From the NCBI GenBank assembly GCA_002162985.1, contig MAAD01000059.1:1-40117 (forward strand): a stretch of 40,117 nt of DNA. The letters run 5' to 3'. Of the stretch, positions 23,245 to 40,117 are shown one piece after another; position 1 is the stretch's first letter; every line of letters starts with the position of its first letter. The stretch comes from Bermanella sp. 47_1433_sub80_T6 (GTDB taxonomy: Bacteria; Pseudomonadota; Gammaproteobacteria; Pseudomonadales; Oceanobacteraceae). The notes beneath the pieces were generated by a model. The model had not been told where the DNA came from. It searched no databases and saw nothing but the letters and a program-made list of their open reading frames with translations. The position numbers and the translations under genes were made by a program.

Positions 23245-23415
23245 AGAAACTCCACGCCCAAAAAGCAGGCTAAAAATTGTTTTATTTTTTTAATGCAGTG
23301 AATTTAAACGCAAGCTGGGCGGGTTTCAACTATTTAGGGATCGACAGGGGAATTAATAGAGAGCTGACCATAAAATCAGCTACATATGGTTATTACCGCT
23401 CATCCTGAACATAAC

Positions 23416-23490
23416 CGCTCATTGCCATCCATGGCACCGCGTCATACTGTACTTCCTGTACATAAAAAGCCCGAGACGGGCTCGGGCTTA
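23416..23490. repeat. Dispersed intergenic structured repeat, family 1, copy B (includes the terminator hairpin)
   Basis: CGCTCATTGCCATCCATGGCACCGCGTCATACTGTACTTCCTGTACATAAAAAGCCCG matches copy A at 791-862. Confidence 0.75.
23467..23489 (-). terminator. Intrinsic terminator for the ALDH gene
   Basis: AAGCCCGAG-ACGGG-CTCGGGCTT; the minus strand continues into a T-rich tract (TTTTTATG). Confidence 0.8.
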
Positions 23491-31251: not shown

Positions 31252-31352
31252 ACGTCAAACTGGTACGATCACCGGGTGAGCGACTTTTCGGGCACGGGGG
31301 AGTCCTCGTACATTCAGTCGCCCACCCATTTAAAAAAGGTTGCCGCCCGTTC
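31252..31352. repeat. Dispersed intergenic structured repeat, family 2, copy A (core 31263-31311)
   Basis: GTACGA...TCGTAC outer stem enclosing two hairpins; flanks (TCAAA; ATTTAAAAAAGGTTGCC) also match copy B at 39894-39985. Confidence 0.7.
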
Positions 31353-38852: not shown

Positions 38853-39338
38853 TTACACGAGAGACTTCTGCCAGAACATGGCTTTGCCCATAGTGGGGTC
38901 CAGTTCGTAACCGGCAAAACCAAACTTCATATAAGAATTTTGGGCTACCTTGTTACCTTCCAATACCTCGAGGGTAATCTTGCCGCAGCCTCGGTCTCTG
39001 GCCATATGCTCTACTTTTTCCAGCAAAAGTTGGCTAATGCCTTGCCCTCTAAATTCATTTAACACAACCACATCGTGAATATTCAATATGGGTTTACACA
39101 TAAAGGAAGAGAAAGCTTCGAAGCAATTCACCAGACCGGCAGGTTTATTATCCACGTAACAAATTAAACTTAGTGCATGAGGCAGCTTGGCTAATTCTTT
39201 GGCCAGATTATCTTTCACATCTTGGTTTAGCGTCTCACCGCCCCCCATGGGGTCCTGGGCGTAGCTGTCTAACAGATAAATAAGATCTTGTGCATGTTGC
39301 GAGTTTAAATAATCTACATTTACAAGGTTGATACTCAT
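38853..39338 (-). CDS. GNAT family N-acetyltransferase
   Basis: ILNIHDVVVLNEFRGQGISQLLLEKVEHMARDRGCGKITLEVLEGNKVAQNSYMKFGFAGY. Confidence 0.93.
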   Translation of the reverse strand: MSINLVNVDYLNSQHAQDLIYLLDSYAQDPMGGGETLNQDVKDNLAKELAKLPHALSLICYVDNKPAGLVNCFEAFSSFMCKPILNIHDVVVLNEFRGQGISQLLLEKVEHMARDRGCGKITLEVLEGNKVAQNSYMKFGFAGYELDPTMGKAMFWQKSLV

Positions 39339-39341
39339 GAA

Positions 39342-39851
39342 TCAATGCTCTGGAGAGGCAGGATTAGCTAGATCTGAATTTGCCATAATTCGGGTCTTTT
39401 TACTTGGAAAATTCGAATAAAATTGATTATGGGTCATTTCAGAAAAGACATCATCTCTTTGGTAATACTGGACAATCCAGTTAAGCAGCATCTCAAGGTT
39501 TAAATCTTGTGCAGCCTTGGATTCATACTTATGTGGCTCCCAAGGACGGTTTTCTGCATTCTGCTGACAGGCACTGACAGGCAGGTTCATAAAGATGATT
39601 TCTTCGGCCTGTGAGACCAGCATCTCTAATAAATCGGTATAACCCCCTTCTATAACCCAGGAATCGTGATGGGCTACAAAGCTTTCTATGTCCACTTGAG
39701 AATCAGTAATTGGGCGTCTGGTGGTGGGAGCGTCGACTTGCCAGGCTAGCGTGTCTAAATCCAGGTGGGCGAGCCCGTACTGGCTACTTAGCTTTTTAGA
39801 AAGGGTTGATTTTCCAGAGCCGGAGTTGCCAAATATTAAAACCTTTTTCAC
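39342..39851 (-). CDS. P-loop AAA/adenylate-kinase-like ATPase
   Basis: VLIFGNSGSGKSTLSKKLSSQYGLAHLDLDTLAW (Walker A). Confidence 0.85.
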   Translation of the reverse strand: MKKVLIFGNSGSGKSTLSKKLSSQYGLAHLDLDTLAWQVDAPTTRRPITDSQVDIESFVAHHDSWVIEGGYTDLLEMLVSQAEEIIFMNLPVSACQQNAENRPWEPHKYESKAAQDLNLEMLLNWIVQYYQRDDVFSEMTHNQFYSNFPSKKTRIMANSDLANPASPEH

Positions 39852-39893
39852 GCTTGGCTCCTAACCACTGTTAACCAGTATCTATAGAGCCTA

Positions 39894-39985
39894 CATCAAA
39901 TCTGTACGAGCTCACCCTGTGAGCGATGGGGCACGGGGTGCCCTCGTACGATTTAATAACTCGCCGATTTAAACAAAGCTGCCAT
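39894..39985. repeat. Dispersed intergenic structured repeat, family 2, copy B (core 39898-39954)
   Basis: AAATC(t)GTACGA | GCTCAC-CCT-GTGAGC | GATG | GGGCAC-GGG-GTGCCC | TCGTAC GATTT: three-way junction; matches 31252-31352. Confidence 0.75.
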
Positions 39986-39994
39986 CTGCTTGAA

Positions 39995-40117
39995 TTACTT
40001 AGGTGCAAAGCCTGCATCTTGCAGATGTTTGGTCATTTTATCTAACATCAGTTGCAGGCCATTAATGGGGCGCAACATCACTTCAAAGTGTACGATTTTA
40101 CCCTCGTCATTCCAACG
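39995..40117 (-). CDS. C-terminal part of a nuclear transport factor 2-like/SnoaL-fold protein, truncated by the window edge
   Basis: RWNDEGKIVHFEVMLRPINGLQLMLDKMTKHLQDAGFAPK*; open to the window edge. Confidence 0.6.
   Translation of the reverse strand, partial: RWNDEGKIVHFEVMLRPINGLQLMLDKMTKHLQDAGFAPK

Follow-up and report, generated by a model that had tools for sequence, protein, structure and literature searches.

At the end of the 40,117-nt window (the whole stretch of DNA analysed here, contig C2 of a 2.54-Mb Bermanella MAG of 350 contigs that is about 75% complete), a compact palindrome lies between two genes, which raises the question of whether it is a structured RNA, a terminator kept by its host, a recombination site or a mobile repeat. 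The evidence indicates that it is very probably a pair of REP units in tail-to-tail orientation, i.e., a REPIN or minimal BIME, and that its family is associated with RAYTs. REP/RAYT systems are widespread; with membership of the REP/BIME/REPIN family the kind of element is therefore already known, and the REP identification itself is ordinary.

The initial annotation had described a cloverleaf at 39894-39985, in which an 11-bp outer stem, interrupted by one bulged T, surrounds two perfect 6-bp hairpins. Letters and pairing proved exact and the element is present, but the span was too wide: the cloverleaf occupies 39898-39954, i.e., AAATC (39898-39902), T, GTACGA (39904-39909), GCTCAC, CCT, GTGAGC, GATG, GGGCAC, GGG, GTGCCC, TCGTAC (39944-39949) and GATTT (39950-39954), and its conserved core, the REP dimer, is 39904-39949. 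This core consists of two tagged hairpins: i) unit 1 (39904-39926, + strand), GTAC-GA-GCTCAC-CCT-GTGAGC-GA, with tag GTAC, foot GA, stem GCTCAC/GTGAGC, loop CCT and 3' GA; and ii) unit 2 (39927-39949, - strand), GTAC-GA-GGGCAC-CCC-GTGCCC-CA, with the same tag and foot, stem GGGCAC/GTGCCC, loop CCC and 3' CA. The linker GATG between the hairpins (39925-39928) is shortened relative to the 8-nt GATTTTTC type, which is why unit 2 ends in CA and not GA. The outer stem of the cloverleaf results from the facing arrangement of two identical tags, and the AAATC/GATTT pairing belongs to this copy only, since it is absent in other compact dimers.

As RNA the element folded better than dinucleotide shuffles of itself (z -3.1; one of 200 shuffles as good), as did its reverse strand as DNA (z -3.6; none of 200 as good). 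The prediction for the - strand as DNA has the three-way junction of the initial annotation as its minimum, but the + strand as RNA prefers a single long hairpin in which CACCCTGTG is paired with CACGGGGTG. Thus the fold of the element is not unique.

The whole cloverleaf is not the recurring unit: the real unit is one tagged hairpin, found alone, tail-to-tail and head-to-head. Using a unit pattern in which the tag and inner stem were fixed and the outer three stem positions left free, and one mismatch allowed, 31 forward and 30 reverse matches were obtained in the same MAG versus five and two for a reversed-pattern control, and the 21-base unit pattern gave 22 forward and 26 reverse matches versus none on either strand. 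Further copies, for which the initial annotation had proposed a search along with stem covariation, are therefore plentiful: the 2.5-Mb MAG holds about 60 units with unrelated flanks and a constant anatomy of GTAC, GA, a 6-bp stem closed by a 3-nt loop, and GA. The loop was CCC or CCT in 53 of 56 units and the 3' GA was present in 55, the sole exception being 39927-39949. The covariation is also present: the three stem positions left free by the pattern were complementary in 56/56 units (45 by Watson-Crick pairs alone), whereas 2000 shuffles of the 3' letters averaged 16.6 and never exceeded 28, and the stem variants included GGC/GCC, GGG/CCC, GCT/AGC, GTG/CGC and GGT/ACC.

A stable fold (z about -3) and stem covariation that includes G-U type pairs would both suit a structured RNA (riboswitch, ribozyme, sRNA or attenuator) with the cloverleaf as the functional unit at this locus. 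Such covariation would, however, equally be expected of a single-stranded DNA hairpin read by a RAYT, and Rfam covariance models at the gathering threshold gave 0 matches in the window, in keeping with the initial view that no riboswitch or ribozyme is recognisable. Moreover the outer extension is not common to the copies, and the units occur at about 60 sites as monomers and as tail-to-tail and head-to-head pairs. The small structured RNA option of the initial annotation is weakened because the copies are dispersed, lie in both orientations and have unrelated flanks.

The location of the copies bears on this reading and on a second one. With mechanical ORF calling, which makes the location counts approximate, 21 of the 22 elements with enough flank were outside ORFs, while 86% of random positions overlap an ORF; the gene context was co-directional in 11 cases, convergent in nine and divergent in none. 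At the nine convergent sites (of 20 classified) there is no downstream gene for an RNA to control, and all in all a structured RNA is strongly disfavoured and very unlikely. The same distribution (intergenic, never between divergent genes, often a few bases past a stop) is consistent with a bidirectional intrinsic terminator or an mRNA 3'-end stabiliser that is kept by the host and not mobile, roles which published work has ascribed to REPs of other bacteria. However, as the initial annotation had said of the classic U-tract, neither a T tract nor a terminator prediction was found at 39898-39954; the invariant GTAC-GA tag and the RAYT association described below are needless for a terminator; and the family is patchy among congeners, with exact 21-base unit matches in three of nine congeners and no such match in 26 genomes from other genera. 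A host-kept terminator or stabiliser is therefore unlikely, and such a role may be a secondary effect of a REP. Among the matches listed, named records fall in the Bermanella/Thalassolituus group, with scattered single units in Rhodanobacter, Dyella, Frateuria and some MAGs; GTAC units were also found in Rhodanobacter, Dyella and HGW MAGs.

Within the window, the dimer at 39904-39949 lies upstream of the start of a P-loop kinase-like gene (39342-39851, - strand; weak AAA_18 and PRK08118 matches, below curated cut-offs) and downstream of the stop of the next gene (39996-40117, - strand), which is cut by the contig end and is NTF2-like according to the initial annotation only. In contig C496 of congener G038, compared with window positions 39323-39995, both outer genes are kept and the kinase gene and REP dimer are missing together; a precise empty site of the REP alone was not found. 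Kinase relatives in four congeners have differing upstream neighbours, and neither a DNA search of plasmids nor a search of viral contigs with the kinase gave matches. Flanked by two co-directional genes, the dimer is probably carried along passively, and if it affects supercoiling or transcript ends at all, it would do so secondarily. The second copy in the window reported by the initial annotation is present at 31263-31311, where the unit pattern matches at both 31263 and 31311, but it is a decayed tail-to-tail pair with damaged stems: it reads GTACGA-TCAC-CGG-GTGA-GCGACTTTTC-GGGCACGGGG-GAGTCC-TCGTAC, the first stem having lost two bases and the second being mutated, with linker GACTTTTC. 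The window also carries a second repeat type at 782-841 and 23394-23467, in which hairpins TTGCCATCCATGGCA and TGTACTTCCTGTACA are paired; these repeats are about 60 nt long, 83% alike and without a REP-like tag, and similar CCATCCATGG hairpins adjoin a REP in another locus (L048).

The arrangement of the units follows that of REPs. Among the pairs in the fetched loci, 12 were tail-to-tail, 17 head-to-head and one head-to-tail. Most of the compact tail-to-tail dimers were heterodimers, with a GCTC-type unit joined to a GGGC-type unit by an 8-nt linker (GATTTTTC and variants), those elsewhere in the genome reading GTACGA-GCTCAC-CCY-GTGAGC-GATTTTTC-GGGCAC-GGG-GTGCCC-TCGTAC; because this linker recurs among unlinked copies, the compact dimer appears to spread as a unit. 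The exact dimer pattern matched only the reported locus in its own genome, since that pattern fixed the shortened linker. As for head-to-head pairs, 16 of the 17 overlap by exactly four bases, i.e., they have one GTAC in common, a palindrome identical to its reverse complement. In a sample of 295 genomes of the order (a set leaving out congeners G004, G007 and G008) this fused pattern was found in the same MAG only; it is present in G007 and G008. Contigs C18 and C20 of G007 also carry tandem arrays of REP units at regular spacings of 26 nt and 30-43 nt, which suggests local amplification. An imperfect palindrome between genes that acts as a folded single strand also recalls the recombination sites used by other systems, e.g., integron attC; yet the copies are not grouped in cassette arrays but spread over tens of contigs, where their neighbours are ordinary genes, and the two-tag REP anatomy together with the RAYT association explains them fully, making an attC-like site extremely unlikely.

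That association was found in congener G008 (MAG of an uncultured Thalassolituus sp., CAJXIT), where a 22,036-base contig encodes a 148-aa RAYT (L156) that matches NF047646 above its cut-off (E 1.3e-37) and has, on both sides and within about 200 bases of the gene, fused head-to-head dimers of the same CAC-CCT-GTG family as the reported element. Therefore L156 and its flanking repeats form a REP-RAYT pair as defined previously (PMC2817692). With dispersed tagged units and a RAYT association, the REP/MITE-like mobile palindrome, one of the options in the initial annotation, turned out to be the right one. By protein search, no L156-type RAYT was found in the about 75% complete MAG that holds the window, and no RAYT of any kind in G004 or G007, both of which carry the repeats (G007 and the window's MAG are about 72-75% complete). 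PF01797 revealed two RAYT genes in the latter MAG, one intact (contig C142) and one broken (C159), which are 47% and about 56-61% identical to L156, the latter being interrupted by a stop or a frame break. The intact gene has REPs with GTAC tags, but another stem, on both sides. The broken one (L031, C159:4388-4811) is in two frames and is flanked by GTAC and GTAG copies of GAGCGAGCCTGCTCGCGA, whose stem is also that of the REPs around an intact RAYT (L155) in congener G006. G006 has three RAYT genes (L155, L158 and L161), each with its own REP stem sequence; around all three, read in gene direction, the elements follow each other as reverse-GTAC, forward-GTAG, gene, reverse-GTAC, forward-GTAG, and the two strands therefore have different tags. 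Against the IS200 transposase model the RAYTs score far below the cut-off, and their only sequence match in the PDB is 4er8.

The conserved tetranucleotide sits at the expected place 5' of the hairpin but is mostly GTAC, versus the classical GTAG/GTGG. When tag bases 3-4 were left free, 52 units of the window's MAG had 45 GTAC, seven GTAG and no other tag, and relatives had GTAC/GTAG mixtures. Published REP families carry GTAG or GTGG tags (PMC3733652, PMC6006769), with degeneracy listed at positions 2 and 3 only (GYAG, GYRG, GTRG and GTMG), and the word GTAC is absent from the text of PMC3733652. In the part of the literature covered, as texts without figures, the only GTAC tag found was a laboratory mutant of GTAG (PMC8266576), with which the group-3 enzyme of S. 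maltophilia no longer cut, while the Marinomonas Mb enzyme cut at GA/GT instead. A natural GTAC tag looks unreported so far.

Among group-3 enzymes, Q95, D100 and R104 are relatively conserved tag-contacting residues (PMC8266576, PMC6006769), and alignment to PDB 4er8 places the Asn of the segment VWNKGFYDHGIR at Gln95. RAYTs and their flanking DNA were sampled across the class, tags being scored as repeated tagged hairpins outside the gene. Among the group-3 RAYTs for which tags were detected, GTAC was the tag in 5/5 with Asn95, in 0/40 with Gln95 (GTAG/GTGG only) and in 0/3 with other residues (Fisher p 8e-7, relatedness ignored). In a broader, mainly group-2 sample, a Gln RAYT of the same genus (L152) was accompanied by 18 GTAG and a single GTAC. 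The five Asn95 RAYTs group together in a single clade (support 99/88) that branches from within the Gln RAYTs; the link between Asn95 and GTAC, drawn from sequence comparison, is only suggestive because it represents one phylogenetic event. GT/GA enrichment beside the GTAC units, which would mark cut sites, was not evident, and the bases upstream of the units were pyrimidine-rich for both tags. Two regularities are weaker: the tag order at the G006 RAYT loci, and the base directly following the 3' GA, which in GTAC units is mostly T and in GTAG units mostly A or C (p 1e-7 in relatives and 0.02 in the window's MAG, relatedness uncorrected).

These observations are consistent with the following scheme. 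The dimer would be non-autonomous and depend on a group-3 (subclass 2.5) RAYT to copy it as a DNA single strand. This RAYT, an HUH/Y1 nuclease, would bind the hairpin, read the 5' tetranucleotide as a guide, and cut and join nearby single-stranded DNA; we infer that L156 or a relative moves these repeats. Points against it are that no L156-type RAYT was found in the window's MAG and no RAYT in G004 or G007, that no precise empty site was found, and that the S. maltophilia enzyme did not cut with GTAC, although the Marinomonas Mb enzyme did. The GTAG tag has been proposed, from laboratory work, as the guide that picks the cut site (PMC8266576). If GTAC likewise works as a guide, the cut site should therefore shift from CT/CA to GT/GA, and Asn95 of the GTAC-associated RAYTs may be part of the adaptation. 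A functional natural guide change, in which a RAYT clade in one genus went from Gln95 to Asn and its REPs from GTAG to GTAC, is a tentative proposal to which we give less than even credence; at some loci one strand would use GTAG and the other GTAC. If true, the choice of cut site has been re-programmed and head-to-head REPs could fuse around one palindromic GTAC tag. A natural family with another guide and a matching enzyme change would be an evolved test of the guide idea, with the prediction of cutting at GT or GA and not at CT or CA.

The family most resembles the GTAG-1 type REPs of Pseudomonas, Xanthomonas and Thioalkalivibrio (Di Nocera et al. 2013, PMC3733652), whose RAYTs belong to group 3/subclass 2.5 (PMC6006769, PMC8266576): both have a tag, an unpaired dinucleotide, a short perfect stem, a small loop and a short conserved 3' motif, both comprise subfamilies with complementary stem changes and form tail-to-tail and head-to-head dimers with head-to-tail pairs nearly absent, and both are intergenic, with REPs of the family on either side of the RAYT. 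Among the group-3 RAYTs sampled in about 37 further genera of the class, most likewise have GTRG-GA-stem-loop-stem-GA repeats of this layout beside them. Unlike GTAG-1 REPs, the units of the Bermanella MAG carry GTAC in 45/52 cases. As in the REPINs of Pseudomonas fluorescens (PMC3116915), two inverted REPs and a recurring linker spread together, but here most compact dimers combine two different stems, one GCTC-type and one GGGC-type, and in relatives the two ends of a dimer can differ in tag (GTAC and GTAG). The HUH-Y1 nuclease family is shared with the E. coli BIME system and its TnpAREP (RayT; PDB 4er8), whereas E. coli REPs are longer and have a bulge (PMC8266576), and the E. coli RAYT has Gln95 where the GTAC-associated clade has Asn. 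Finally, in IS200/IS605 elements such as IS608 a tetranucleotide guide 5' of a hairpin also selects the cut site (PMC8266576, PMC6006769), but here the REPs occur in inverted pairs and not as part of an autonomous IS.
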